Origin: a virus
Virus record (IMG/VR): IMGVR_UViG_3300006868_000058
Coordinates: 1-31,610 of that record
Length of the DNA: 31,610 nt
Strand: one strand, 5' to 3'
Below the pieces are notes generated by a model that was not told where the DNA came from, did no database searches, and saw only the letters and a program-made list of their open reading frames with translations. The translations under genes were made by a program, and so were the position numbers. Below are positions 8,020-31,544 of the stretch, in pieces (the first letter of the stretch is position 1; each line of letters opens with the position of its first letter).

Positions 8020-8658
8020 TCACAGTGTAACCGTAGCGTCGCAGTCAAAGTACGTCCCGTCTTGGACTTCGTACAGCCGCCCACGGCCTGTCTTGTCTAC
8101 CATCCAGCCGGAATCAAGGAGACCGTTACCCTGCCGCCCGTAATCAACGCCGCCAGTAAGGGGGTTGTCAAACTCATCGTATCCAGTGGCGCCGGACCCG
8201 TCGTTGTTTTGTCTGGAAAACAGGCGCAGGCACGGCATGGGCGCAGAGTAGTTAATGTTGTTGCTGCTTACCAAGCCGCCTCCAGAGTCCACAACGGTCA
8301 GCACAGGACTGCGTCCAGACACGCGCTTGAAGAAGTGCCAGATGTAATCGTCATATGTTTCACCGCCCCTGTTGAAGGCAAAGGTGGTCTGCCCCTGTTC
8401 AACGGTACATCCCCAAATCTCAACTTCGTAAGACGTGGAGTAGCTTGAAAGCTGCACGGACGGATTCCCCGTTGCGGGACTATGGCTTTGTGCAACACTG
8501 AACAATGTCATAATCAGGACATCCCCCGGAACGGGTAGCGTTCCAGTGGTGGTTTGGATGTCAGAGAGAGTGGGTGTGCGCCCGCCACCTCCCCCGGCAT
8601 ACTCAAGGATGGGGTAGCTGCTTTCACCCATCATCTGCATTTGCTGGATCGCGGACAT
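8020..8658 (-). CDS. Short adhesin-like protein after the second fibre
   Basis: A 212-residue protein. Its ATG at 8658 overlaps the fibre stop (TAATG); the frame is open further upstream but that part lies inside the fibre gene. It starts with a short helix (MSAIQQMQMMGESSYPILEY), a glycine run (AGGGGG), then a beta-rich domain with many aromatic and Gly residues (SYEVEIWGCTVEQGQTTFAFNRGGETYDDYIWHFFKRV). The same plan is found in the 227-residue gene after the first fibre. A small gene right after a long fibre resembles fibre-tip adhesins such as the gp38 type, so receptor binding is the best guess (inference). Confidence 0.7.
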   Translation of the reverse strand: MSAIQQMQMMGESSYPILEYAGGGGGRTPTLSDIQTTTGTLPVPGDVLIMTLFSVAQSHSPATGNPSVQLSSYSTSYEVEIWGCTVEQGQTTFAFNRGGETYDDYIWHFFKRVSGRSPVLTVVDSGGGLVSSNNINYSAPMPCLRLFSRQNNDGSGATGYDEFDNPLTGGVDYGRQGNGLLDSGWMVDKTGRGRLYEVQDGTYFDCDATVTL

Positions 8659-10970
8659 TAGCTGATGTTCCCGGACATTACGCAGACTGTGCCACTGATA
8701 AACAAGATCGTCGCGGTCCCCCGTGTTGCGAGCGTGACACTCGCCTTGTCGAGATTGTTGCCAGCAATATACGCCGTGGTAATGCTGCATGTGATCGTGA
8801 TGTCGCCAGAGGTGTTGTTGAAGATGCTTACAACGTCACCTTCGCTAAAAGTCGCGTCAGGGATTGTGATGCTGCCGCCCGTACCCACTTGGACGTACTT
8901 GCCTACATCCCCTGTCGCCAGCGTGTAGCTGGTGGTCTTGGTGCCGACAGCCGGGACGTTCCGGAAGCCAACCTCGTTGGTCCCGTCAGCAGTAGAGTTC
9001 GAAAGATCAAGTGCCGGCGTGCCGGTAGAGTTCGAAAGATTAAGTGTGGGCGTGCCGGTGCAATTCGACAAATCCCCTGATGTGGGTGTACCAAGAACTG
9101 GCGTCACCAAGGTCGGTGACGTGTTAAACACGACGGCACCCGTTCCGGTCTCGCCGGTAATAAGTGCGGCGAAATTTGCGGTGGTCGGACTGTTTACAAA
9201 CGCGTCAAACCCGGAGGCTCGGCCCACTAACCCCCACGAGGTCAGATTCGAACTGTAGGCCTGCACGTCATAGCCGATAGCCACGCCAAGATTAGTACGA
9301 GCCGCTGCCGCTGTAGAAGCCCCAGTGCCCCCGTCGGCTACCGCAAGGTCGGTGATTCCCGTTATAGATCCACCAGTGATACTGACGCTGGTGCTGTTTT
9401 GGGTAGCCATTGACCCCAAACCCAACGACGCCCGAGCAGTAACACCACTTTCGGCTACCCATGTAGACCCGTTGCCGACGATAAAGTTGCCGTTGGTCTT
9501 AGCGAGGCCCCCCAGTGCGGTAAGGTCTGCATCATAGGCCTGCACATCGGTACCGATAGCAAGACCCAACGAGGCCCGAGCGGTTGCGCCACTTTCGGCG
9601 ACCCAGCCAGCTGCGCTGCCAACAATGATGTTTCCGTCAGCGGAAGACAACGCCGCAATCTTAGTAAGGTCTGCGTCATAGGCCTGTACATCGCTTCCGA
9701 TAGCGAGTCCAAGACTCGACCGGGCTGCGGATGCCGTAGTGCCTCCAGTACCCCCATTGGCGACCCCAAGCGTACCACCGAGCGTCATAGTACCAAACGA
9801 CGTGATGGGGCTTCCTGAGACTGTCAGCCCTGTGGTCCCGCCGCTCAGACCAACCGAGGTAACCGAACCGTCCCCGGAGCCAGTCGAGACAAACTGCAGC
9901 GTGCCATTACCATCCGTGGCTAGAACATAGTTGGCCGTGGAGTCCGCGGTAGGAAGGGTAAAAGTGCTCAAGAACGCAGCGCTGTTCGCGTCGTATGCCG
10001 CTACGTCTACGCCGATTTCGAGGCCAAGATTAGACCGCGCTGCCGCCGCTGTGGAAGCCCCTGTCCCACCGTCTGCGATAGCGAGGTCGGTAATTCCAGT
10101 AATAGACCCGCCAGTGATACTAACACTGGTACTGTTTTGTGTAGCTACTGTGCCAAGGCCAAGCGACGTGCGCGCAGAGCTGGGAGTCTCTAGCGCCCAC
10201 GACGTTCCGGTACCCACAATAAAGTTATTAAGCGTAGGAGCCAACGCAGCGATCTGGTCGAGGTTTACGTCCCACGCCTGTACATTGCTACCAATAGCCA
10301 CTCCGAGGTTAGTACGTGCATCCGCGGCAGTAGATGCTCCAGTTCCACCGTCTGCTACAGCAAGGTCCGTGATGCCAGTGATAGAGCCACCAGTAAACGC
10401 AACACTGCTGCTAGACAGCGTGGCGGCCACCGAGCCACCTGTGATGCTGACGTTATTGCTGTTTTGAGTTGCAATGGTTCCAAGACCAAGGTTTGTTCGC
10501 GCAGTGGAGGCACTGTTGACGTCAGACAAGTTATTGGACGCCAATAGGAAATCTCCGAAATTGGCAGTAAGATCCACAACCTGTGCCGTCGCACCGCCGC
10601 CATCTGCGTATACGACCGCGGCTTTGCCATTGGTAACAGTGACGTTACCCCCCGACCCTTGGGTAAGAACGACAGCCTGCCCGCTGTTGTTCTGGACAAA
10701 GAACAGCTTAGTCTGGTCGTTCGGGCTGATAGTTACAGTATTGGTGCCGGTCGGAGAACCTGCGAACACAAGGACCGCATAGTTGGCGTCAGAAAGGGTG
10801 CCATCTGTTGTCGTCAGCGTGTGTGTGGTGCCAGACAGCGATATTTCCTTGACGCCCTTGGTGGCGGCATCAAGCATCTGCAGGTTCACGTTGGTGTTAT
10901 CGCCCCATGTGCCACTGTCGGCACCTGTGACCATCAAGCGAAGCCCATTGATGTTCGTGTAGCTTGTCAT
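8658..10970 (-). CDS. Tail fibre with Gly/Thr/Ser repeats
   Basis: A 770-residue protein with AGAGG ahead of its ATG. Residues 1-135 form a domain I recall at the start of marine phage fibres (GADSGTWGDNTNVNLQMLDAATKGVKEISL...). The shaft is made of repeats: DGGTGASTAAAARTNLG occurs about four times, SVSITGGSITGITDLA about four times, and IGxDVQAYDADLTALxxL-type units five or six times. Such repeats build trimeric beta-structured shafts. The C-terminus (about 690-770) is a separate beta-rich domain (TTSYTLATGDVGKYVQVGTGGSITIPDATFSEGDVVSIFNNT). It likely attaches to the tail hub and, with the adhesin-like protein encoded next, recognises the host surface. Confidence 0.85.
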   Translation of the reverse strand: MTSYTNINGLRLMVTGADSGTWGDNTNVNLQMLDAATKGVKEISLSGTTHTLTTTDGTLSDANYAVLVFAGSPTGTNTVTISPNDQTKLFFVQNNSGQAVVLTQGSGGNVTVTNGKAAVVYADGGGATAQVVDLTANFGDFLLASNNLSDVNSASTARTNLGLGTIATQNSNNVSITGGSVAATLSSSSVAFTGGSITGITDLAVADGGTGASTAADARTNLGVAIGSNVQAWDVNLDQIAALAPTLNNFIVGTGTSWALETPSSARTSLGLGTVATQNSTSVSITGGSITGITDLAIADGGTGASTAAAARSNLGLEIGVDVAAYDANSAAFLSTFTLPTADSTANYVLATDGNGTLQFVSTGSGDGSVTSVGLSGGTTGLTVSGSPITSFGTMTLGGTLGVANGGTGGTTASAARSSLGLAIGSDVQAYDADLTKIAALSSADGNIIVGSAAGWVAESGATARASLGLAIGTDVQAYDADLTALGGLAKTNGNFIVGNGSTWVAESGVTARASLGLGSMATQNSTSVSITGGSITGITDLAVADGGTGASTAAAARTNLGVAIGYDVQAYSSNLTSWGLVGRASGFDAFVNSPTTANFAALITGETGTGAVVFNTSPTLVTPVLGTPTSGDLSNCTGTPTLNLSNSTGTPALDLSNSTADGTNEVGFRNVPAVGTKTTSYTLATGDVGKYVQVGTGGSITIPDATFSEGDVVSIFNNTSGDITITCSITTAYIAGNNLDKASVTLATRGTATILFISGTVCVMSGNIS
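9293..10400 (-). repeat. Imperfect direct repeats inside the fibre gene
   Basis: Three related blocks begin near 9293, 10030 and 10309. The first two match over roughly 145 bases and the third over about 85; they encode ARTNLG, DGGTGAST and SVSITGGSITGITDLA. They could support recombination that changes shaft length. Confidence 0.75.
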
Positions 10971-10979
10971 GTCGGCCTC

Positions 10980-11942
10980 TTATGCGGCTATGTCGTCCCA
11001 ACCATCACCAGACGGCGGAACTATTTCTGTCCATGTGCCCCCAGAGGGTGGCGTTACTCCAGACCAAGTTACAGGCGGTTCTGGTGCTATTGGCCCCCAA
11101 ACTATCACAGACGGAGTTGCTAGGGTAGCCTCAACACCAAGCAGAGACACAACAGCAGAGCCTATTACAGAGGCTGCGCCAACGGTCCCCGTGGCAGTAA
11201 CACCTGTAACGGGAGCAGTAGCACTGATAGAAATTACAACGGAGCCAATAGCGCCAGACGCTTCAACACCTGTCGGGGAGACGTTGGCGGCAGCAAGTAC
11301 CGTGACACTGCCGACAAAGCCAGTTGCCGATACTCCAGAAGCATTAACATTTGCCGGGACAGAGGCAGTGACAGAGCCGATCTGACCGGACGCAGATACG
11401 CCCGTAGCAGATACGTTTGCCGTCCCCACGACCGCAGCCGTGCCAATCGCGCCGGAGGCGGAAACGCCAACTACGGTCGTGTTGCTGTCAGCGGAAACGG
11501 TCAGGGTGCCTGCCGCGCCAGTCGCGAAGACGCCCGTAACGGGGACGTCTATGTCTATACCCTCAAGGATAGATACAGTGCCGACCTGTCCGGTTGCCTC
11601 AACACCCTCAAGGATGACATCTGGGTTAACGTCAACAATGCCTACATTGCCTGCACCAGAAACGCCTGTTGCCACCACATTGGCCGTGCCAACCATAGTG
11701 ATGGAGCCAACCGCACCGGACGCAGGGACGCCTGTGACTGTGGTATTGCTGTCAGCAGACACCGAGACAGTGCCAGCCGCACCAGTGGCGGCAACGCCGG
11801 TTACAGATACACTGGCCGCGCCTACAACAGATAGGCTTCCTACACTGCCTGTAGCCTCAACGCCGGTTAGAGTAACGGCGGTTTCACCTTTCAGGCCATC
11901 ATCGGCAAGCGGCGCGGCTGATAGTGGGGCGAAGCCAAGCAT
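10980..11942 (-). CDS. Beta-repeat protein with twelve ~22-residue units
   Basis: A 320-residue protein with GGAG eight bases before its ATG. After a 25-residue leader, the sequence is twelve repeats of about 22 residues of the form TGVxATGxVGxVxVxxxxxVxV; most are exactly 22, one is 20 and one 24. The C-terminus changes to VWGPIAPEPPVTWSGVTPPSGGTWTEIVPPSGDGWDDIAA, a Trp/Pro motif I recall at the ends of marine phage proteins. A regular beta-solenoid or beta-sandwich shaft is likely. It lies between the two fibre cassettes, so a third fibre or fibre-linker role is reasonable (inference). Confidence 0.75.
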   Translation of the reverse strand: MLGFAPLSAAPLADDGLKGETAVTLTGVEATGSVGSLSVVGAASVSVTGVAATGAAGTVSVSADSNTTVTGVPASGAVGSITMVGTANVVATGVSGAGNVGIVDVNPDVILEGVEATGQVGTVSILEGIDIDVPVTGVFATGAAGTLTVSADSNTTVVGVSASGAIGTAAVVGTANVSATGVSASGQIGSVTASVPANVNASGVSATGFVGSVTVLAAANVSPTGVEASGAIGSVVISISATAPVTGVTATGTVGAASVIGSAVVSLLGVEATLATPSVIVWGPIAPEPPVTWSGVTPPSGGTWTEIVPPSGDGWDDIAA

Positions 11943-16373: not shown

Positions 16374-16736
16374 TTATGCCTTGCTGTACTTGCCACCCTT
16401 GGTGGCTGCGCCCATCCCACGGCACGTGCCGCCGGACTTCTTCTTGACGACGCCGCCGGACTTTTTCTTGACGACACCCCCTTTTGCAAGCCCGGAGGCT
16501 TTCCGTGCATCACGCGTTTTCTGCTTCATATCCTGCATACCCTTTATGCGGTGCGCCTCAGAGACTTTACCGCTCCTCAGTTTTTGCCTGAGACGATTTG
16601 CAGCGGCCTTGTCCAGATCGCCACTAGTCTCTCTAGCATTGATTTTAGAGTTCACCGCTCTTGCAGCTTTGATAATTTTTGACGCTTTCTTTTCGTCGCG
16701 GTTGTACGGACGTGCAGTTGAATTTCCACCGGGCAT
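16374..16736 (-). CDS. Lysine-rich small protein with KKKSGG repeat
   Basis: A 120-residue basic protein. The frame is open further upstream; the ATG at 16736 is chosen because GGAG lies about seven bases before it, although an ATG at 16748 is possible. The N-terminal two thirds are a charged helix (NRDEKKASKIIKAARAVNSKINARETSGDLDKAAANRLRQKLRSGKVSEAHRIKGM). The C-terminus repeats VVKKKSGG twice and ends in CRGMGAATKGGKYSKA, a tail I recall on short proteins of marine phages. The charge suggests nucleic acid binding or a role inside the head, but this is inference. Confidence 0.7.
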   Translation of the reverse strand: MPGGNSTARPYNRDEKKASKIIKAARAVNSKINARETSGDLDKAAANRLRQKLRSGKVSEAHRIKGMQDMKQKTRDARKASGLAKGGVVKKKSGGVVKKKSGGTCRGMGAATKGGKYSKA

Positions 16737-16737
16737 T

Positions 16738-17061
16738 TCATTCTCCATCGGTTGTGGTGACAGTGACAGTTCCAACAGATGCTACCATATACTGGGCAGG
16801 ATTGCCTACGGGATTCCACCCCCACAACGCCCGGCTTTCCTGCAGCGAGGTGTCGGGTCGTGGATCAACGAGCGATTGTGGGTCAAAAATTTTAACTCGC
16901 CCAAGGAAGTTCTGCGGGTGATCGGGGTCCACGACATCCTTACCGACACGCATGCCTGTCTTAACGCCGTCCTTGTATTCCCACACAAGGTCAGCAAGTG
17001 GGTATCGAAACCCCGTTTTGTCACAGTAACCGTATGCGTATTTACCGGCAGCGCGAGGCAT
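16738..17061 (-). CDS. Conserved structural protein (107 aa)
   Basis: A 107-residue protein with its ATG overlapping the upstream stop (TAATG at 17059-17063). It contains YGYCDKTGFRYPLADLVWEYKDGVKTGMRVGKDVVDPDHPQNFLGRV and DPRPD, a pattern common in phages with this gene order. The CDxTGFRY part looks like a small metal-site or knuckle, but only one Cys is seen in it, so zinc binding is not supported. It lies between two connector-like genes and is probably a connector accessory or tail part. Confidence 0.75.
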   Translation of the reverse strand: MPRAAGKYAYGYCDKTGFRYPLADLVWEYKDGVKTGMRVGKDVVDPDHPQNFLGRVKIFDPQSLVDPRPDTSLQESRALWGWNPVGNPAQYMVASVGTVTVTTTDGE

Positions 17062-17732: not shown

Positions 17733-17986
17733 CAGGTCTTCTTCCTATGCCGTGCGGTTTTCTTCGCAACCGTCTTTGGCTGCTTGGAGAACTGCTTTCC
17801 CTTTTTTGTGTCCTCTCGCTTCTTGCGAGACGTCGCCGCGTATTCAGACGCGGACAAGGACTTGATCGCGTTCTCCGGCAAGTACCGCTCGCCAGTCGCT
17901 GTGGGGCCTTGCGTGGAGGGCTGACCAGACTTGGTGCGCCACTTCTGCTTTGTCCACGCGTTCAGAGACTTCTGCGGGGCCTTCAC
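17732..17986 (-). CDS. Small basic phage protein (84 aa), GTG start
   Basis: An 84-residue basic protein starting at GTG (17986), which overlaps the upstream stop as GTGA and has GGAGG ten bases ahead. Motifs KSLNAWTKQKWRTKSGQPSTQGPTATGERYLPENAIKSLS and AATSRKKREDTKKGKQFSKQPKTVAKKT are a recurrent pattern in marine and cyanobacterial phages. It is the first of this basic group when read upward toward the capsid genes. The function is unknown; binding to packaged DNA is a reasonable guess. Confidence 0.75.
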   Translation of the reverse strand: MKAPQKSLNAWTKQKWRTKSGQPSTQGPTATGERYLPENAIKSLSASEYAATSRKKREDTKKGKQFSKQPKTVAKKTARHRKKT

Positions 17987-18300
17987 GACGTGTACCCTCC
18001 GCCCTTGTCCTTGTACTGCTTGGCAAGCATCTGGGCCTTACGAGCAGACCACTGCCCGGGCTTGCCGCCCTTGCCACCCGCCTTGATACTCTCGAACAAG
18101 CTCTTGCGCATCCCGGGATTCGTGTAGTTACCAGACTCGTTGACCCGACTTTCGGTTTTACCTCCAGTCTTCATGGGCTTGGTGCCCTTGTACCCAGACG
18201 CGTACGCGGCACGCCCCTGCCGTTCGGCAGCGGCTTTGGTCTTGTAGACCTTGCCTTTGCTACCCCACTTGTAGCCTCCGGGTACTTTTTTGACCGGCAT
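17983..18300 (-). CDS. Small basic protein with two recurrent phage motifs (105 aa)
   Basis: A 105-residue basic protein with a TAATG overlap at 18298-18302. The first half has VPGGYKWGSKGKVYKTKAAAERQGRAAYASGYKG; the second has SRVNESGNYTNPGMRKSLFESIKAGGKGGKPGQWSARKAQMLAKQYKDKGGGY. I recall both as building blocks of short phage proteins, and they may be two fused small domains. It is very rich in Lys and Gly. Function unknown; it belongs to the basic cluster after the capsid operon. Confidence 0.75.
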   Translation of the reverse strand: MPVKKVPGGYKWGSKGKVYKTKAAAERQGRAAYASGYKGTKPMKTGGKTESRVNESGNYTNPGMRKSLFESIKAGGKGGKPGQWSARKAQMLAKQYKDKGGGYTS

Positions 18301-18614
18301 TACCGCATAGTCCCCTTGGTCTTACCCCGCTGGCAGACACCGTCTCCACGGACCCGGCCGCCGGATTTCATCTTCTTCATGCCCGTCACTTTGCGCATTA
18401 GAGGGGCTGCGTCCTTACGAGGGGCTTTATCCTTCGCCACCGCCATAGCCTGCGCTACGGCCTGTTCCATAGCCTGCTTGCCTGCCTGCGGTGTGGCGGA
18501 GTAGTTGCCCTCAGCGTCAGGCATCATGCCGCCCGCCTGCATCTTCTTGGTGCCTTTGCAGTTCATGCGGTTTCCTTTCATCTGGCTGCCCATCTGGGCA
18601 CGCGAAATAGCCAT
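18300..18614 (-). CDS. Small basic protein sharing the capsid N-terminus (104 aa)
   Basis: A 104-residue protein. A GTG two codons earlier is open, but the ATG at 18614 overlaps the upstream stop (TGATG). It begins MAISRAQMGSQMKGNRMNCKGTKKMQAGGMM; the first seven residues are identical to those of the major capsid protein. The centre is an Ala/Gln helix (AGKQAMEQAVAQAMAVAKDKA), and the C-terminus is basic (MRKVTGMKKMKSGGRVRGDGVCQRGKTKGTMR). It may be a head-associated protein, but this is inference. Confidence 0.72.
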   Translation of the reverse strand: MAISRAQMGSQMKGNRMNCKGTKKMQAGGMMPDAEGNYSATPQAGKQAMEQAVAQAMAVAKDKAPRKDAAPLMRKVTGMKKMKSGGRVRGDGVCQRGKTKGTMR

Positions 18615-18910
18615 CAGCACTTCCAGCGCTTGCGCGCCTGCCTCAGTCGGCTGTTTGGATCTTTGGCCGCTTTGGGAAACTGCTTCATCTGTCCAGCGGA
18701 GCGTGCGCAGAACGACTTACGTCGCTTAGCCCTTTTACCCGTTGGGTTATCTTCGGTCACCGCGGTCTGCAGTTTGGACCCGGGGTTCTTCTTTCGATAC
18801 GCGGCAACGCCTTTTTTGGTCATGCCTGCGCCCTCAGAGGTCTTCCGGTAGTTTGCGCCCTTGCCCTTTGTGGTTCGGGCAATCGGCTTATCGCGTTTCT
18901 CTTTAGCCAT
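18614..18910 (-). CDS. Small basic protein with KSFCAR motif (98 aa)
   Basis: A 98-residue, very basic protein overlapping the upstream gene by 8 bases. Motifs: PIARTTKGKGANYRKTSEGAGMTKKGVAAYRKKNPGSKLQTAV and a C-terminus KRRKSFCARSAGQMKQFPKAAKDPNSRLRQARKRWKC. The RRKSFCAR...RLRxARxRWxC ending is one I recall across many phages, unassigned to any function. Two conserved cysteines in a basic setting could bind a metal or form a disulfide. It is the first member of the basic cluster as transcribed. Confidence 0.78.
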   Translation of the reverse strand: MAKEKRDKPIARTTKGKGANYRKTSEGAGMTKKGVAAYRKKNPGSKLQTAVTEDNPTGKRAKRRKSFCARSAGQMKQFPKAAKDPNSRLRQARKRWKC

Positions 18911-20049: not shown

Positions 20050-20310
20050 TCACGATGCCGCGATGGTAGCGCCAGTATCCGAACGCTTCCAGTTGGTGCC
20101 GTCCGAAAACGCGAGAATCGGCGAACCAGCAGCGCCATTAGAAACGTAGATTAGCGTCCCTGCGCCTGCCGAAGCGGCGGAAGGTGCGCCTGCCACAGTG
20201 TAGGTGGGAACGGTGATCGCGCCAACGACGTCACCTGTCACATCGCCCGTCACGTTACCCGTGAAGCCGTTGTTTGAAACAACCGGACCGCTGAAAGTAG
20301 TCGTACCCAT
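20050..20310 (-). CDS. Small structural protein with glycine/valine repeats (86 aa)
   Basis: An 86-residue protein. Two ATGs are in frame; the second (20310) has GGAG six bases upstream, while the first directly abuts it, so the second is preferred. The start GTTTFSGPVVSNNGFTGNVTGDVTGDVVGAI has short repeats (NVTGDVTGDVVG). The C-terminus AGTLIYVSNGAAGSPILAFSDGTNWKRSDTGA is a pattern seen in phage fibre and head-associated proteins. It is the first gene after the terminator following the capsid gene. Confidence 0.75.
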   Translation of the reverse strand: MGTTTFSGPVVSNNGFTGNVTGDVTGDVVGAITVPTYTVAGAPSAASAGAGTLIYVSNGAAGSPILAFSDGTNWKRSDTGATIAAS

Positions 20311-20495
20311 GTGCATCTCCTGTCGTGGGTCAAGTCAGCCACCCTATGCGGCTGTCAGGGATGCACGCAGCATACACTCGTACAGAATAAAAAGAAAGGG
20401 GCCGCCGAAGCGGCCCCAGTTTGGAAGACAGTCATGTCAAACAGGGAGGAGTTTAACAAGACCAGACTACCAAACTTTCACGGTCACGTCACGCT
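20311..20495. other. Intergenic region between capsid and downstream genes
   Basis: A 185-base gap holding the terminator above. Between the terminator and the next start I see no promoter that clearly fits a sigma-70 pattern, so downstream genes may depend on partial read-through or on a phage-specific promoter. Confidence 0.6.
20388..20420 (-). terminator. Intrinsic terminator after the capsid gene
   Basis: On the minus strand an eight-base-pair perfect stem GGGGCCGC/GCGGCCCC closes on a TTCG tetraloop (20398-20417) and is followed by TTTCTTTTT. It lies in the 179-base gap between the capsid stop (20496) and the next start (20310). The extra-stable loop and U-rich tract make a strong terminator. 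It probably limits read-through so that head proteins are made in excess over genes below. Confidence 0.92.
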
Positions 20496-23849: not shown

Positions 23850-24024
23850 ATATGTGCCGCTCTATCAACTCGCGGAGATCATCCTCAACCACATTGAACG
23901 CTTCTAGGCGGCCAACGATCCGCTGGTATCCGTCGTAATCTTTGACAGACCCAGCAGCGAGGTAGTCTTTAAGTTGCTCGCGGTATTCAGTCACCTTCTT
24001 TAGAAGGAGTTGTAGTTCGTCCAA
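23842..24024 (-). CDS. Small coiled-coil protein overlapping the portal gene (60 aa)
   Basis: A helical protein overlapping the portal 3' end by 38 bases. No ATG is in frame. The TTG at 24024 has AAGGGAG six bases upstream and is preferred to an earlier TTG at 24054. The product reads DELQLLLKKVTEYREQLKDYLAAGSVKDYDGYQRIVGRLEAFNVVEDDLRELIERH, two helices with a SVKDYDGYQRIVG turn. I recall such two-helix proteins next to phage portal genes; the role is unknown. Confidence 0.7.
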   Translation of the reverse strand: MDELQLLLKKVTEYREQLKDYLAAGSVKDYDGYQRIVGRLEAFNVVEDDLRELIERHISS

Positions 24025-26518
24025 GGTTTGCTCCCTTTGCCAAGTCAGTGGCAATCTTCACGCCCAGCTTCGCACCTTCTGTCTTCTCTTTGCGAGAGTT
24101 GGCGTCCAACTGCGTAGCCATACGGGCGCTGATATTCGCAGCATCACGCTGCATGTCGGCGTCGAGACGCTCCTGCTGAACCGCCAAGTTGCCTGCCTTT
24201 GCGGCGGTGTCCATCTTGAAGCGTTCCAGCTCCATGATGGCGTTGTGCTTCGCTTGATCCTCTTTCAACTTGATCTCGCGGGCTTTCAACTCCAGCTCCG
24301 CACGCTGGATCTGCGTAAGCGGGTCCTGCTCTTGCTGCTGGGCCTGCTGCTGTGCAGCCTCTGCTTGGTTACCCTTGAGCAGCTTGTCTGCGGCCATAGC
24401 CGCCATGCGGGACACTTCAAGCTCCACATCCTCGGGCAGCGGAGCCTCCGGATTAGGCAGTTCGACACCAAGGCGTTTCTGTATCTCCACGCGGTACTGC
24501 AGGGCGATGTGCTCGGTGATATGCGCCGACATAGCGTTCATGATCGCAGGCGCGAAGGGTGACTGTCCGACCATCTGCTGGATCTTCGGGTCTTGAGCCA
24601 TAGCCATATGGACCTGAATGTGTGCTTGGTGGTCCTGATACGCAAAGGCCTTAACCGGCTCCTGCTTGAGGATCGCCATGTTTTCAGTGACCGGATCAGC
24701 AGGCTTGATGTCGTCAGGCAACTTGATGATGTCGTCTGCGTCCTGAATCCCCAGCACCTCCAGCATCTGACGATGTAGCTTACCCATATCATAGAGCTGC
24801 GGAGCCTGCTGAGCCAACTGCAGTGCAGACTGATACTGCACGACTCGCTGCGCCATAGTCGCGGCGTTCGGATCAGACACGGGGATTACGTCCACACGAC
24901 CGTCGAAGTCTTCGATTCGGTTAAAGGTCTCGCCGTCTTCGGCCTCCATGTAGGAGTATTCGGCGGGCATGTAGTCGTGGATTACACGAGCCAACAAACG
25001 AAGCTCGTTCTTCATGGCGGCATGCAGGCGAGCCTGTACACCCGACATGACCTTCAGAGACCGTTCGAGCAGGGCCAGTGTCGTACCGACCGGTGCTTCC
25101 GGGTTCATATTCCCGACCTGAATATCGGCCACGGAGCCAATGCGGCGTCCTTCCTCAACCACATTTCCCAGCAGTTGGTACAAGACACCCGACGGTTCTT
25201 TATACGGTAGGAACGTAATAGAATCGCGAATGGCTCCGCCCGGGATGTCAACGTCTCGGAACTCTCCCGGCATGATAGGCGTATCGTCCCCACGAATACG
25301 CATACCACGGGCTTTAAGACCGCCGGGAAGGTTAGACAATGTGCCTGCGTCGATCAGCTGGCGCATGATAGACGTTGCAGACTTAGCCAGACCACCAATC
25401 AGATGGATCAGACCTGTACCGTAGAACCCAAGGCCCGGCAGATACTTATAATGCACGAAGTGCATCAGCTTCTTTTTCTTCGGGTCGTCTTCGTCATAGT
25501 TGCGACGAATCGACAGCACGGTACGGGACGACTTGTCGATAGTAATAATGTATGGCCGTGCAACACCGTCAGGGTCGTCAAACCCCTCCGGCATGTTCAT
25601 GTCCACGTGCATCTCTAGCAACGTATGACGGTCGTCATCGTCCAGTGTGGCTTCTTCCCCGTCGAGATCATCATACTTCTCTTGGATGTCAGAAATATCT
25701 GCGGTGGGGGCAGGAAGGTCTACATCACGATAGAAGCCGCTGATCTGCAACTTCAAGATTTCGTTGGCGTCCTTCTTCATGACGTGCGTATAGCGCGAGC
25801 AGGTCTGTAGATCAGACGCCCCATACGACACCACAAAGTCCTCTACGGGCACGAACATAGCCACCGGGCGCTCCCGGATCGGATCATAGTAGACTTTCTT
25901 AAACGCAGAACCAGCCAATGGGAGACGGAACAACATCTGCTCCATTTCGTCACGGTATTCTGTCATTTCTTCGGTTAGCTGATAGTTCAGCTCGTTCTGG
26001 ACGCGTTCGGCCTGCTTGAATTTTTCAGGCGTCAACTTGCCGAGAATCTTTGACTTCGCAGGGCCAGAGGCAGGGAATATCTCACCCATAGCTTGCGCTT
26101 GAAACCGCACAACGGCTTCCGTAAGCAGGGGGTGGAACACCCCCGACGCACCCTGCCATGGCTGACTACGATCTTCGACCTTGAAACCCAAAAGGTCCAG
26201 ACCCTTCATGTACGCCGCGGCCCAATCCTTGCGAGACCGACGATCAGCCTCGAACTCCTGAACCAACTCGCTGGCCATCGACTCCAGTATATCTTCGTCA
26301 ATGAAATCAGCGAGGTTCGCGGTATGGTCCGGACCAAGAAGGGCATCACTGACTCCGCCAGTGAAATCAAGGATCATACCACCATCATCGGTTTCGATAG
26401 AGATTGCATCCGGATTGACGATCTCCAGTTCGAGATCGGCTTCATCCAGTTCCATGTCATCATCCTCAAGCGCCTCTGGAGGAATCTGAAATGGTGTTTG
26501 TACTTTATCGACAGCCAT
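23987..26518 (-). CDS. Portal protein, P22 gp1-like
   Basis: An 843-residue protein with AAGGAG before its ATG. An acidic N-terminus (1-75) leads to WAAAYMKGLDLLGFKVEDRSQPWQGASGVFHPLLTEAVVRFQAQAMGEIFP and GSAFKKVYYDPIRERPVAMFVPVEDFVV, a pattern of large podovirus portals. Later parts include FVHYKYLPGLGFYGTGLIHLIGGLAKSATSIMRQLIDAGTLSNLPGGLKARGMRI and NPEAPVGTTLALLERSLKVMSGVQARLHAAMKNELRLLA. Residues about 690-843 are a long Gln/Ala/Lys-rich helical region like the P22 barrel. The dodecamer forms the packaging and ejection channel. It follows TerL and two low-complexity genes, which is unusual spacing. Confidence 0.92.
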   Translation of the reverse strand: MAVDKVQTPFQIPPEALEDDDMELDEADLELEIVNPDAISIETDDGGMILDFTGGVSDALLGPDHTANLADFIDEDILESMASELVQEFEADRRSRKDWAAAYMKGLDLLGFKVEDRSQPWQGASGVFHPLLTEAVVRFQAQAMGEIFPASGPAKSKILGKLTPEKFKQAERVQNELNYQLTEEMTEYRDEMEQMLFRLPLAGSAFKKVYYDPIRERPVAMFVPVEDFVVSYGASDLQTCSRYTHVMKKDANEILKLQISGFYRDVDLPAPTADISDIQEKYDDLDGEEATLDDDDRHTLLEMHVDMNMPEGFDDPDGVARPYIITIDKSSRTVLSIRRNYDEDDPKKKKLMHFVHYKYLPGLGFYGTGLIHLIGGLAKSATSIMRQLIDAGTLSNLPGGLKARGMRIRGDDTPIMPGEFRDVDIPGGAIRDSITFLPYKEPSGVLYQLLGNVVEEGRRIGSVADIQVGNMNPEAPVGTTLALLERSLKVMSGVQARLHAAMKNELRLLARVIHDYMPAEYSYMEAEDGETFNRIEDFDGRVDVIPVSDPNAATMAQRVVQYQSALQLAQQAPQLYDMGKLHRQMLEVLGIQDADDIIKLPDDIKPADPVTENMAILKQEPVKAFAYQDHQAHIQVHMAMAQDPKIQQMVGQSPFAPAIMNAMSAHITEHIALQYRVEIQKRLGVELPNPEAPLPEDVELEVSRMAAMAADKLLKGNQAEAAQQQAQQQEQDPLTQIQRAELELKAREIKLKEDQAKHNAIMELERFKMDTAAKAGNLAVQQERLDADMQRDAANISARMATQLDANSRKEKTEGAKLGVKIATDLAKGANLGRTTTPSKEGD
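24031..24037 (-). promoter_or_regulatory. Ribosome binding site before a TTG start
   Basis: Minus-strand AAGGGAG six bases before the TTG at 24024-24022. It decides the start of the 60-residue protein and lies inside the portal coding sequence. Confidence 0.6.
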
Positions 26519-26527
26519 GATGGCTCC

Positions 26528-27316
26528 TTACCTCATTGCATAGGACGGTGCAGTGCGGGGACCGCCCGACATCTGGTCAGAACGCATTTGCGGGCCACCC
26601 TTGCCGCCCATGCCGCCCATCTGGGGCTGCATAGGCGGACGGCCAAAGCCGCCAAAGCCGCCAAAGCCGCCAAACCCACCAAACCCGCCACCAAACTGCG
26701 GAGGCATAGGCGGACGGCCAAAGCCGCCAAAGCCGCCAAACCCACCAAACCCGCCACCAAACTGCGGAGGCATAGGCGGACGGCCAAAGCCGCCCATCTG
26801 TTGTTGCATCGCAAGCATCTGTGCAAGACCACTGGCCATCGGCGGGCGGGTAAAACCGCCCGGCGGCATCTGCCTCATACTGTCGGGCACGGACCGAACG
26901 TCCGACATTCTAAATGGCAGCCTCTGCCCGCCCTGCATGTTGTTCGTCTGTGGTTGTAATCTTCCCGAGCGGTACTGATCGTATCGCTCCGCGAGAACCG
27001 GATCGACCATCTTGCCTTCGTATTCAACCAGCGGACGTAACTCTTGTGTGGTCGGACCCATCAAAGACGACCTAGAAAACTCGTCTATGGACATAAGCGG
27101 CTGCGCTGGCTGAACTTGCGGTCGGAACGGAGCCATGCCGCCACCCCGTGGACCCATGTCAGGAGCGTAACCGCCCTTTGGCCTAGAACCACCTTTGCCA
27201 CCCATGCCGCGGGCCATCGGCTGGCGTGCAGGCATCACAGCGGGACGAGGGCCGTACATACGATCATTTACAGCGTCCATTGTCGCCTGCGACGTTCCGG
27301 GTGCAAAACTGGTCAT
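26528..27316 (-). CDS. FG-repeat-like low-complexity protein (262 aa)
   Basis: A 262-residue protein with an ATGA overlap at 27313-27316. The first 70 residues are rich in Gly, Pro, Met and Arg (PMARGMGGKGGSRPKGG, MGPRGGGMAPFRP). A short folded-looking stretch is at 75-145 (LMSIDEFSRSSLMGPTTQELRPLVEYEGKMVDPVLAERYDQYRSGRL). Residues 174-238 repeat GGFGRPPMPPQF and GGFGGFGG, encoded by a tandem DNA repeat of 75 and 66 bases plus a partial third copy. Such FG and Arg/Pro sequences favour weak multivalent contacts. I do not recognise a family. It lies between terminase and portal, so a head or packaging role is possible. Confidence 0.75.
   Translation of the reverse strand: MTSFAPGTSQATMDAVNDRMYGPRPAVMPARQPMARGMGGKGGSRPKGGYAPDMGPRGGGMAPFRPQVQPAQPLMSIDEFSRSSLMGPTTQELRPLVEYEGKMVDPVLAERYDQYRSGRLQPQTNNMQGGQRLPFRMSDVRSVPDSMRQMPPGGFTRPPMASGLAQMLAMQQQMGGFGRPPMPPQFGGGFGGFGGFGGFGRPPMPPQFGGGFGGFGGFGGFGGFGRPPMQPQMGGMGGKGGPQMRSDQMSGGPRTAPSYAMR
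26630..26794 (-). repeat. Tandem 75/66-bp repeat encoding GGF/RPPM units
   Basis: Unit one is 26630-26704 and unit two 26705-26770; a partial third begins at 26771. They are nearly identical, differing by one 9-base GGF unit, which suggests recent duplication or slippage. Confidence 0.9.
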
Positions 27317-28194
27317 GCGTAGCCACCTCCAAAGAAGCCACCAACCCCAGCGGCCATGTTGTTACCTTGTCCGCCCCCCTTGCCACCATAGCCATAAGAC
27401 GGCGTGCTATAGGCATTATACTGAGGAGCGATACGAAATCCACTGGCCGACGGTTGCTGCATGCCATAGCCACCGTAGCCGCCGTAGCTGCCGTATGACG
27501 GCTGCTGCATGCCATAGCCACCGTATGACGGTTGCTGCATGCCATAGCCACCGTATCCATAGGAAGGCTGTCCGTAAGCCATAGCAGGTGGCTGCATGCC
27601 ATAGCCACCATAATTGTATGATGTCTGCATCGGCATAACTTGCGGGAGGTAGGACGCCAACATCTCGTTCAGACGAGACACCTGCGAAGAATACGGTGTG
27701 AATGACGGCTGTGTGTAGGAAGGAGTAGAATTAAAAAACTGAGTAACCGCAGGGGAGGGGACATATGAAAATTCAGGGGCTTCGATAGCGATACCACGGG
27801 GAGCGTTAGGATCACCCGCGGCTGAAGAGGGCAGAAAACGGCGTCCTTCAGAGCCTTCACCTTGGCTGACATACCCACCATAGGAACTACCTGCGCCCTC
27901 TCGGCCCGGATCAAAATAGCGGGCAATCCCAGTGGCCCGTATACCCGAGCCGCTCGGCGTGGCTCCTATGGCGTTGGACGTACGCCCAATCCACCCGCCC
28001 GGGCTGCTGGTGTTCTGACGATTCTCGCCCGCGCCTAGAGTACCACCCCCGGCAACATAGTCAGCGTTCGAGCCAGAGTAGAAATAGTCACCCGCGCCGC
28101 CAGCACCGCCGCCGTTGACCATATCCAGCTGCTTGTCGGCAAAATTTATCTTGCCATCGTTGTTTGCGTCGTACCCGCCGTAGCCCGACCCCAT
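27313..28194 (-). CDS. Gly/Tyr/Gln-rich low-complexity protein with EF-hand-type loop (293 aa)
   Basis: A 293-residue protein. The frame is open further, but the ATG at 28194 has AAGGAG eight bases upstream. Residues 9-20 are DANNDGKINFAD, a perfect match to the calcium-binding EF-hand/dockerin loop (D-x-N-x-D-G-x-I-x-x-x-D). The middle (30-190) is Gly/Ser rich with a helix at about 170-185 (SQVSRLNEMLASYLP). Residues 192-248 repeat YGGYGMQQPSYG, a composition close to prion-like [G/S]Y[G/S] domains. The end is GKGGGQGNNMAAGVGGFFGGGYA. It is co-translated with the FG-rich gene. No family recognised; a structural or condensate-forming role is inference. Confidence 0.75.
   Translation of the reverse strand: MGSGYGGYDANNDGKINFADKQLDMVNGGGAGGAGDYFYSGSNADYVAGGGTLGAGENRQNTSSPGGWIGRTSNAIGATPSGSGIRATGIARYFDPGREGAGSSYGGYVSQGEGSEGRRFLPSSAAGDPNAPRGIAIEAPEFSYVPSPAVTQFFNSTPSYTQPSFTPYSSQVSRLNEMLASYLPQVMPMQTSYNYGGYGMQPPAMAYGQPSYGYGGYGMQQPSYGGYGMQQPSYGSYGGYGGYGMQQPSASGFRIAPQYNAYSTPSYGYGGKGGGQGNNMAAGVGGFFGGGYA
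27440..27620 (-). repeat. Repeats encoding YGGYGMQQPSYG units
   Basis: A block containing GTTGCTGCATGCCATAGCCA or close variants recurs several times (about 27452, 27500, 27530 and 27590). They encode the GGYGMQQP units of the Gly/Tyr-rich protein. Confidence 0.75.
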
Positions 28195-28254
28195 ACGCTG
28201 TCTCCTTGCCCTAACACGGTGGACTATACCGTGAAACACCCCAATCTGGCAATG

Positions 28255-29817
28255 TCAGTAATAGTCTGCCTTCCTACGGTAGTTGAAGTCCTCCTCCGGC
28301 TCGTCCGTGGGCAGTCGAATGAACCCGCCCTGACGGAACCGCAGCAGTGCCATAACCGTAGAGTCAACCAAGTCGTCGTGTGACCCGTACGGGAATGACG
28401 CCACTTCTTCAATGACCTCCTCAGCCCACCGTTTAGGCGGTGCCCAGACCATCCCAGAGGCCAAAATGTCCGCAACGGAGTTCAGGCGGGCCAACTTGTC
28501 CCCTGTACCGCGGTGCGGTGTGTACTCCTGCAGCGGGATACCCATCCGGCGCAGTTCTTGATAGATAGCCACCCCCGCACTCTTCTTTTCCACAATGAAG
28601 CTGTCCGGCTCCCACTCTTTCCAGTGCTCTAGGCACAGAGCCTTCAGTTCCGGGAAGTCCAGACGCTCTTTGACAGCATTCAACAATATCAGCCCGGGTT
28701 CCCCCGTGTCCTCGTTGTAGAATACCCCCCACGTCGTCAGTGCGGTGAAGTCGGCACGGTTATGTTTCTCTGCCGCGGCGTCGAGTGACGATATAATGTA
28801 TTCGCACGCGGGGGGTCGTTCCTTACCCCATGTGTTCCACCACTCCCGCTTGACGATTGACGCTTCTTCGGACGTGGGGTTCTGCTGATACTGAGCGTTC
28901 CACTGGAACAGCGGCATCGACGCCTTGGTGCGGTGCAGGGCAGGCAGGTCGAAGAACTCCGGCCAGAGCGCTTTCTCCTTAGTCCGACCCTTCTTGTCCT
29001 CCACCTCCATGATGGCAGGCAGTTCGACAACCTCATATTGATCCGAGCCTTCGTTTTGTACCATATCTCGTACAACGCGTCCGGTGAGATCATCCATGTG
29101 CCAACGTGTCTGCACGACCGCTACGCGCCCCCCGGGCATCAGACGGGTACGGGCACCGAATGTGAACCACTCGTAGGCCTTCTCGAACACTTCGAAGTTA
29201 CCGTTCAGCACGTCCTGTTCTGAGTGGGGGTCGTCGATCAACAACAAGTCCGCACCGCGACCGGCCAAGGCCGACCCGACGCCGCAGGCGAAATACTCGC
29301 CTCCCGCGTTCGTGTTCCACCGACCGGCCGACTTACTGTCTGCAGCCAGCGTCACTGCCGGAAAAACTTTCCGGAAATCCTCAGACGCGATGAGGTTACG
29401 GACTTTGCGACCAAAGTCTACCGCGAGATCCGTGGTGTGCGACACCATCATGACTTTCTTGTTCGGATTGCGACCCAAGAACCACGCAGGGTAATATACT
29501 GAGACCAACTGCGACTTACCGTGACGAGGCGGCATGTTTACGCAGATCCGGTCCTTATCCCCGGCCTCAATAGCCATAAGCTGATCCGCAAGGATGCGGT
29601 GGTGTCGGCCTACCTTATAATCAGGTTGCATGGCCTTGCAGAACTCAATCAGGTCGTCCTGCACCGCCTTTTGGGCGTTTCTACGCTCCAACTCCTCCAG
29701 TTGTTCGCTGATGGCCGCGACTTCCCGGTCCGACAGATTGTCTATATTTTGAAGCAGCAGCTGAAGCTCAGCTTCGCTGAATCCGAGGTCGCTGACTGGC
29801 TCCACAGTGTCTTTCAT
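28255..29817 (-). CDS. Terminase large subunit (TerL)
   Basis: A 520-residue packaging motor. ATPase: Walker A PPRHGKS (96-102), Walker B LLLIDD (191-196), coupling motif QTRW (236-239). Nuclease: candidate metal ligands Asp346 (ISSLDAA), Glu410 (FIVEKKSAG) and Asp481/Asp482 (GSHDDLVDS). The N-terminal 60 residues are helical with LLLQNIDNLSDREVAAISEQLEELERR, perhaps contacting TerS. The ATG overlaps the TerS stop (ATGA at 29814-29817). It cuts concatemeric DNA and drives it through the portal into the prohead. Confidence 0.96.
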   Translation of the reverse strand: MKDTVEPVSDLGFSEAELQLLLQNIDNLSDREVAAISEQLEELERRNAQKAVQDDLIEFCKAMQPDYKVGRHHRILADQLMAIEAGDKDRICVNMPPRHGKSQLVSVYYPAWFLGRNPNKKVMMVSHTTDLAVDFGRKVRNLIASEDFRKVFPAVTLAADSKSAGRWNTNAGGEYFACGVGSALAGRGADLLLIDDPHSEQDVLNGNFEVFEKAYEWFTFGARTRLMPGGRVAVVQTRWHMDDLTGRVVRDMVQNEGSDQYEVVELPAIMEVEDKKGRTKEKALWPEFFDLPALHRTKASMPLFQWNAQYQQNPTSEEASIVKREWWNTWGKERPPACEYIISSLDAAAEKHNRADFTALTTWGVFYNEDTGEPGLILLNAVKERLDFPELKALCLEHWKEWEPDSFIVEKKSAGVAIYQELRRMGIPLQEYTPHRGTGDKLARLNSVADILASGMVWAPPKRWAEEVIEEVASFPYGSHDDLVDSTVMALLRFRQGGFIRLPTDEPEEDFNYRRKADYY

Positions 29818-30711: not shown

Positions 30712-30732
30712 AGACCGTGACGCGATATTAAA

Positions 30733-30780
30733 TGACACGTTCCGAAACCAAACCGTGGCAAGGCATGGCAAAACGTGTCA
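30733..30780. promoter_or_regulatory. Spaced 9-bp inverted repeat, operator candidate
   Basis: TGACACGTT (30733-30741) and AACGTGTCA (30772-30780) are exact inverted copies, centres 39 bases apart (close to four helical turns). They lie upstream of the plus-strand gene and could be a pair of half-sites for one protein. Confidence 0.55.
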
Positions 30781-30845
30781 GATATAGGTTATCGGAAGGG
30801 CAATCCCGCCTGACCGAAACCATGTCAACCGAGAAAGGACAAGAC

Positions 30846-31544
30846 ATGACAAACGCAACCGCAACCGCAACCGCCAAGGCAACCGCAACCGCCAAGGCAA
30901 CCGCAACCGCCAAGGCACGCAAGCCGCGCGCTGCAAAGGCGCAAGCCGCCCCCGTCAATTTTTCCGTCAAAGATGCGGCGCTTGCCGCAACGGATGGGCT
31001 GAAAGCGCAAGGGCGGCTCGAAAGCGCGCAAGCTGCGCGCGACAAGGCCGCCCTTGCTTTCCGCGATATGGTCATCGCGGCAAGCCTGACCACGAACGAT
31101 TTTCGTGGTGCGACAAAAGACAAGACGCGTGGTGAAGGCAAGCATTGTCAGGCCTTGCGGCAAGAGGTGGCCTTGTCTTGGTTGAACGCGGCCGAACGCA
31201 AGATTGTCGAAACGGCGAACGATAAGGCGAACGGTTCGCCTTATCACAAGGCCATGACCAAGGTCACGAACGCGGTCAATCGGTTCCTTGACCATGTGGA
31301 TCGCGTGGCCAAGGCTGAGGCTGAGGCCAAGGCCAATGGCGGCAAGGGCAAGGGCAAGGCTAGCCCCGGCGGCCGCACAATCAAGGCCATGTCCGAGGTA
31401 CTGACCGAGGGTTTCGGCACGATGCTGAAACGCCTTGGCAACGACAAGAGGTCGAAAAACCCCAGCGGGGCGAACCACGATACGGTCCGCAGGGTTTTGG
31501 AAAAGGCATTGAGAGATGCCTTGGCGGAAATGGCCAAGCAATAA
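30846..31544 (+). CDS. Divergent basic protein with Ala/Thr/Lys repeat N-terminus (232 aa)
   Basis: The only convincing plus-strand gene. The frame extends upstream, but ATG 30846 has AAGGA seven bases before it. Residues 1-25 repeat ATATAK three times in a histone-H1-like Ala/Lys/Thr tail, followed by KPRAAKAQAA. The rest is helical (VKDAALAATDGLKAQGRLESAQAARDKAALAFRDMVIAASLTTNDFRG...WLNAAERKIVETAND...FLDHVDRVAKAEAEAKANGGKGKGKA), ending with KRLGNDKRSKNPSGANHDTVRRVLEKALRDALAEMAKQ. No family recognised. Opposite direction, its own terminator and a basic tail suggest an early DNA-binding or regulatory protein (inference). Confidence 0.8.
   Translation: MTNATATATAKATATAKATATAKARKPRAAKAQAAPVNFSVKDAALAATDGLKAQGRLESAQAARDKAALAFRDMVIAASLTTNDFRGATKDKTRGEGKHCQALRQEVALSWLNAAERKIVETANDKANGSPYHKAMTKVTNAVNRFLDHVDRVAKAEAEAKANGGKGKGKASPGGRTIKAMSEVLTEGFGTMLKRLGNDKRSKNPSGANHDTVRRVLEKALRDALAEMAKQ
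30861..30914 (+). repeat. Three perfect 18-bp tandem repeats
   Basis: GCAACCGCAACCGCCAAG occurs three times with no mismatch, encoding ATATAK units at the start of the plus-strand gene. In frame, so copy number could change without loss of the protein. Confidence 0.95.

Follow-up and report, generated by a model that had tools for sequence, protein, structure and literature searches.

A fast-evolving pair of low-complexity genes, predicted to encode disordered proteins, in the terminase-portal slot of an HTVC023P-type phage

What are two genes for repeat-rich, low-complexity proteins doing between the large terminase gene (TerL) and the portal gene of a phage? The question is raised by a 31,610-nt stretch of viral DNA (IMG/VR record IMGVR_UViG_3300006868_000058, positions 1 to 31,610; hereafter the window), in which an earlier note had likened the repeats of two adjacent proteins, here LC1 and LC2, to FUS-type prion-like and FG-type domains and had suggested that the two might condense together around portal, scaffold or DNA. 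The sequence comparisons reported here indicate that LC1 and LC2 are a real, undescribed and fast-evolving pair in a phage cargo slot, and they allow the possible roles of the pair to be weighed.

Both genes lie in a packaging and head operon that reads, on the minus strand, TerS, TerL, LC1, LC2, portal and GroES, followed by a 308-aa scaffold-like protein, two small proteins and a Mu-gpT-like major capsid protein (Table 1). Specifically, AAGGAG stands 7 nt upstream of the LC1 ATG, and a GTG at 28239 is unnecessary as the LC1 start. The LC1 stop and the LC2 start overlap as ATGA, with GGAGG preceding the LC2 start, and portal begins 9 nt after LC2 with an AAGGAG of its own. The two are genuine genes of this operon, coupled in translation, and the overlap and strong ribosome sites bear out the claim of the earlier note that they are co-translated.

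Table 1 Features of the LC1/LC2 locus and its borders in the window
Feature	Position	Strand	Description	Evidence
TerS	30437-29814	(-)		
TerL	28255..29817	(-)	upstream border of cargo slot	PHROG 38, E 1.5e-103
LC1	27313..28194	(-)	293 aa, Gly/Tyr/Gln/Pro-rich, predicted disordered	ATG start, AAGGAG at 28207-28202
EF-hand-like loop DANNDGKINFAD, LC1 residues 9-20	28135..28170	(-)		Pfam EF-hand_1 E = 0.33, below cut-off
LC1 conserved module, residues 131-178 (EFSYVPSPAVT...PYSSQVSRLNEM)	27661..27804	(-)	candidate docking element	z vs shuffles; pLDDT
LC1 Tyr/Gly/Gln repeats, residues 192-248	27451..27621	(-)		sequence; TRF 30-bp unit, 97%, at 27491-27556
GKGG motif in LC1	27373..27384	(-)		motif enrichment
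LC2	26528..27316	(-)	262 aa, basic, Gly/Pro/Met/Arg-rich, pI 11.1, predicted disordered	
GKGG motif 1 in LC2	27188..27199	(-)		motif enrichment
LC2 RPPMPPQF-GGF repeats, residues 174-238	26603..26797	(-)		TRF 66-bp unit, 100% matches, 26651-26794
GKGG motif 2 in LC2	26594..26605	(-)		motif enrichment
Portal	23987..26518	(-)	downstream border of cargo slot	PHROG 1216, E 2.6e-39

Gene order and protein similarity identify the phage as an HTVC023P-type podovirus, a virus of marine type. TerL, portal, GroES (Pfam E 3.2e-12) and the Mu-gpT-like capsid gene follow the HTVC023P order, and the published core genome of this group includes terminase and GroES (PMC9599517); the PolA-type DNA polymerase and helicases of the core genome lie outside the window. 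The portal protein shares 38-44% identity with the portals of Pelagibacter phage HTVC023P (43.9%), Roseobacter phages CRP-901/902 and Planktothrix phage Pag-Yong1, and the window is 100% identical to IMG/VR contig 3300034374_002231 (64.7 kb) over the 14.6 kb compared. As a scan of genome collections found only two portal relatives, in MAGs of an uncultured Rhodobacterales (the closest, 64%) and an Acidobacteriaceae, no firm host can be assigned. Elsewhere in the window, an Rfam Mu-gpT-DE RNA (RF03012, E 1e-13) lies at 20308-20360 (-), directly downstream of the Mu-gpT-like capsid gene, and two small basic genes stand between capsid and tail genes at 17983-18300 and 18614-18910 (-), one with AGGKGGKPGQWSARKAQM...KGGGY and the other with a DUF6321 domain (E 1.3e-13). 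An open reading frame beside TerS (30732-31544, +) has a ATATAKATATAK-type N-terminal stretch encoded by an 18-bp unit in 3.2 copies at 100%, and a 320-aa protein of VTGVxATGxxGxV repeats near the tail fibre genes (10980-11942, -) had no PHROG match.

The place of the pair was part of its interest, the earlier note having held that phages normally have no such genes between TerL and portal. Among 130 distinct relatives, taken as the best portal and TerL matches rather than as a random draw, the gap measures less than 60 nt in 72, 60-249 nt in 22 and at least 250 nt in 36. The slot is empty or nearly so in 94 of the 130, in keeping with the note, yet the 36 long gaps show that occupancy is no peculiarity of this phage. 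These long gaps hold unrelated genes: small genes on the opposite strand, some with hydrophobic ends, or sense-strand proteins, which in other lineages are often Gly/Lys-rich, overlap or abut portal and often carry a GG-containing tail. The comparison indicates that the TerL-portal gap is a variable cargo position accepting accessory genes in HTVC023P-type phages.

The other occupants of this slot are varied. Many relatives, such as L040, L062, L077 and L103-L105, have cassettes of small genes on the opposite strand, for proteins of about 155-165 aa (these with a hydrophobic C-terminus), 84 aa and 73 aa; in L102, L115, L143 and L169, proteins with three distinct bodies share an almost identical tail, EMPEGYRAGGRTRLI, immediately ahead of portal. 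A portal fusion considered for L221/L222, where an open frame of about 1500 codons surrounds portal, was rejected, a normal portal of about 835 aa starting from its own ATG. The Gly/Lys-rich (KGG/GGG) proteins of HTVC023P (gp30), L067, L070, L088, L218 and L222 share slot, strand, low complexity and GG motifs with LC1 and LC2, and their stop abuts or overlaps the portal start; they differ in being Lys-rich with RGGG or RGxG tails and in carrying neither Tyr or Pro/Met repeats nor the LC1 module. A further C-terminal tail, (C)RGxGxAxxGxK[FY], ends nine otherwise unrelated protein bodies (14 found against 2.7 expected from shuffling): it occurs in the window at 16374-16748 (-), in L001 at 8199-8936 and in L013, L014, L037, L067, L218 and L222, and the gene after portal in HTVC023P is among its carriers. 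This tail may be a targeting or loading tag.

The repeats quoted in the earlier note are present in both proteins: LC1 residues 192-248 contain 17 Gly, 13 Tyr and 8 Gln among 57, and LC2 residues 174-238 contain 29 Gly, 12 Phe and 11 Pro among 65. Scored over 60 residues, LC2 has the lowest and LC1 the third-lowest complexity of the 39 proteins of the window. Since the underlying DNA repeats are nearly exact (30-bp unit at 97% in LC1; 66-bp unit in 2.2 copies at 100% in LC2), their expansion is recent. The repeats are features of the proteins: in diverged alleles the reading frame is still open, the repeats have changed and the composition is much alike. AlphaFold models built on shallow four-row alignments give mean pLDDT values of 48.1 for LC1 and 46.7 for LC2 (pTM 0.18 and 0.12), with every LC2 block below 55; on alignments of this depth, the low values are consistent with disorder and fall short of proof. 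The composition, with about 7% Ile+Leu+Val and no Cys, likewise points to disorder.

Comparison with known proteins places the pair outside described families. Neither protein matched Pfam, PHROGs, NCBIfam or the PDB in sequence searches, apart from a sub-threshold EF-hand, and tblastn against 50,697 phage records returned nothing; across these collections, the remark of the earlier note that it knew no described system of this kind still holds. An EF-hand or dockerin in LC1 was rejected, the match being a single sub-threshold loop of low pLDDT that is altered in L091. A 491-aa protein two genes after portal in L002 (5182-6657; CRP-902 gp76) has an EF-hand-like loop as well, DLNGDGYITNEE, with a GG motif behind it, which recalls the LC1 N-terminus. 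Curli CsgA/B are known in HTVC023P-type phages (PMC9599517); this identity was rejected for LC1 and LC2, neither of which has a Pfam curlin match at E < 1.

The specific kinships proposed earlier fare less well. LC1 resembles FUS-type prion-like domains in local composition, with regularly spaced Tyr in Gly/Gln/Ser-rich sequence, but homology is absent and Q+N amounts to only 11.3% in LC1 and 9.5% in LC2 (at most 11 and 12 per 60 residues, respectively), so that the FUS/prion kinship was not upheld and, with no Q/N-rich stretch, a yeast-type prion domain was rejected. LC2 shares FG dipeptides with FG nucleoporins, again without homology. Its Phe content is 6% in the window against 1%, 3% and 0% in L010, L012 and L014, and the closest allele has GGM or GGY; an FG nucleoporin-like domain was rejected, as the dipeptide repeats are not kept across alleles. 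Low-complexity proteins are, furthermore, not new to phages in themselves, as roughly one sequenced phage in two encodes one or more predicted prion-like domains (PMC5694896). These domains lie mainly in proteins that contact the host, such as those of tail, fibre and baseplate; that paper names neither portal nor terminase.

Could the pair be virion-surface or adhesive material that varies in repeat number, or an ordered Gly-rich fibre of the polyglycine II or collagen-like type? GGX triplets, Tyr and isolated Lys in Gly-rich sequence and a repeat number that differs between L009 and L089 would suit such a material. The triplet runs, however, reach only four to five, the genes stand outside the tail gene block, and there is neither an ordered AlphaFold model nor a Pfam collagen or fibre match, which makes this reading very unlikely. 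A homologue of known fold such as a collagen-like fibre, named in the earlier note as contrary to its proposal, was not found in Pfam or by PDB sequence search; the collagen-like fibre was rejected on the missing Pfam match, the lack of an ordered model and the low block pLDDT of LC2.

The relatives of the pair reveal how quickly it changes. Recognisable alleles or fragments occur in the IMG/VR contigs L089, L091, L010 (duplicate L011), L012, L013 and L014, with LC1 alleles in L013, L091, L014 and L010 and LC2 alleles in L010, L012 and L014; in L013, portal is immediately preceded by just one LC1-like gene. The phage-database search that the earlier note had proposed finds alleles only in a few related IMG/VR contigs, and further IMG/VR scans for alleles of both genes yielded zero new genomes; the sequence evidence places the pair in a small clade of HTVC023P-type podoviruses. 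In comparison with L010-L014, where the genes are present, identity amounts to 94-100% for the capsid protein, 81-96% for GroES and 83-90% for portal. LC1, by contrast, reaches only 27-39%, and LC2 shows 49% identity across one third of the protein or 29% across less than half of it, or else escapes detection. DNA homology with L091 breaks off 11 nt before reaching the LC1 start; with L010, L012 and L013 it sets in at the LC2 stop codon. These alignments show hypervariability bounded at the cassette borders and a divergence far faster than that of the neighbouring genes. The exception is L089, with 99.7% identical DNA and one 66-bp unit fewer in LC2, a difference that may be genuine or an assembly collapse.

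Several features persist through this drift. A module of about 48 residues in LC1 aligns with L091 at z = 13.0 and with L013 at z = 8.4 relative to shuffles. It has the highest pLDDT in LC1 (block means of at most 80), with short helices at residues 148-155 and 171-181, and is the sole part of the protein that AlphaFold models with any confidence; it is proposed as a candidate docking element. The LC1 N-terminus reads MG(SG)YGGYDA in both alleles whose start is known. The LC1 repeat arms are mostly Tyr-rich and their units differ (YGGYGMQQPSYG in the window, YSQPSYG in L014, SPYGG in L010); Tyr makes up 10% of LC1 in the window, 6% in L013, 15% and 8% in the parts available from L014 and L010, and 5% in the L091 part, which lacks the repeat arm. 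The four LC2 alleles all carry a strong positive charge (net +10 to +15, pI 10.3-11.1) and are Pro/Met/Gln-rich, and the LC2 repeat arm aligns with that of L010 at z = 14.7, GGF there becoming GGM or GGY. The pairing of a Tyr-rich with an Arg-rich, basic protein in the earlier note stands in part, LC1 alleles being mostly Tyr-rich and LC2 always basic, while its FG character is private to the window genome.

The motif GKGG is shared more widely. Across 14 low-complexity proteins, comprising the alleles of the pair and five proteins encoded upstream of TerL, 28 copies were observed against 0.34 expected, with a maximum of 3 in 2000 residue shuffles, a count inflated by common ancestry and tandem repeats. 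At least one copy occurs in 12 of the 14 proteins and none in the other two; elsewhere, among about 2000 open reading frames, GKGG is found almost only in one small type of head-region protein (GGKGGxPGQWSARKAQ). Are LC1 and LC2 nonetheless largely neutral, repeat-expanded reading frames with little function? The exact recent repeats, the weak sequence conservation and the small clade would be expected of such frames, but they are open in several diverged alleles, and the module at z = 13, the GKGG enrichment and the constant basic charge of LC2 render this idea highly improbable.

The same features bear on the condensate proposal, in which Tyr-rich LC1 and basic LC2 would co-condense and concentrate portal, scaffold and DNA for assembly. 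Its elements are there in the window: 30 Tyr in LC1, 23 Arg and a net charge of +13 in LC2, repeats, predicted disorder and co-translation. A viral precedent exists in adenovirus L1-52K, a disordered protein that organises packaging through IDR-driven condensates and for which phase separation was shown (PMC12090768). As a disordered, packaging-linked viral protein it offers a possible working analogy, which makes the idea of the earlier note a reasonable one; it belongs to a different virus world and has a charge-patch IDR. Against a condensate stand the loss of FG among LC2 alleles, the range of Tyr in LC1 (5-15%, from partly incomplete alleles) and of Arg in LC2 (5-9%), and the absence of both proteins from most relatives. 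On balance, an assembly condensate is unlikely.

A second family of low-complexity proteins cautions against reading function from such arms. This undescribed family is defined by a core, NPFEGNEQYQALMEYQKS...FEGTGGYKDYRI, and occurs in 44 IMG/VR loci, among them L017, L018, L020, L023 and L076, where it lies upstream of TerL, and L171-L212; one member, when searched, matched no annotated phage record. Like LC1 and LC2, these proteins have Gly/Tyr/Gln/Pro/Met-rich arms with YGGYGM-like repeats (YGGYGM/PYQPQQ), and most members near TerL carry GKGG. Kinship of LC1 and LC2 with this family (core NPFEGNEQYQAL...KDYRI) was rejected, hmmsearch giving 2.3 and 1.7 bits (best single domain 4.2) against up to 9.1 for shuffles. 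In another lineage the family lies away from TerL and is without GKGG, and in three other genomes the gene is on the strand opposite TerL and portal, so similar arms need not mean a role in packaging.

This observation, together with the variety of slot cargo, brings up the alternative that LC1 and LC2 are host-directed accessory proteins (morons) in a permissive late-operon slot, binding for example host RNA, ribosomes or a defence factor. That the slot of relatives carries unrelated cargo, minus-strand membrane-type genes included, that fast divergence fits an arms race and that one lineage has the look-alike family away from its structural operon would all agree with it; LC1 and LC2 are, however, sense-strand and tightly coupled to portal, and sense-strand slot cargo in other lineages is repeatedly Gly/Lys-rich. 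A host-directed role is unlikely, if slightly less so than an assembly condensate.

The model that best suits the available data is one in which LC1 and LC2 are a fast-evolving, disordered accessory pair that serves head assembly, packaging or the virion, with the module docking and the arms binding multivalently; this reading is plausible and tentative, short of probable. Because the pair is co-translated with portal, it presumably acts where heads are built. There, the LC1 module would dock on a partner such as portal, scaffold or TerL, and the LC1 arms, with their Tyr and GKGG, and the basic LC2 repeats of Pro, Met and Gly could engage in many weak interactions, with one another, with DNA or with portal, a very acidic protein (net -51). 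The two proteins might thereby aid assembly or packaging, or ride in the virion as minor head components. In this model, function would need only composition, short motifs and the module, so the arms could expand and contract freely.

A head role gains from the sense-strand slot occupants of other lineages, often Gly/Lys-rich and overlapping or abutting portal. Counting against it are the many relatives without a slot gene, the partly similar family upstream of TerL or on the strand opposite TerL and portal, and the two of 14 proteins that lack GKGG. As most relatives have an empty slot, any role would be dispensable or replaceable, and since genes on the opposite strand and other diverse cargo fill the slot elsewhere, the position of the pair says little in favour of a role in packaging. 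A more specific version is quite unlikely: Tyr-rich LC1, with its conserved module for docking, and the basic repeat protein LC2 would form a fast-evolving disordered system of two components, each with GKGG as a recognition motif, that collects portal, scaffold and DNA where heads are assembled, perhaps in a condensate.

In the ocean, HTVC023P-type phages rank among the most abundant (PMC10149686), and the proteins of their TerL-portal slot are unnamed. The pair, furthermore, constitutes a clean natural test of which features of disordered proteins matter, as its sequence drifts while charge, GKGG and one module are kept. A literature search for low-complexity virion proteins of phages or phage packaging condensates found nothing direct. 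If the pair does organise head assembly or packaging, it would extend condensate-type organisation to the assembly of tailed phages, for which that search found no described case.
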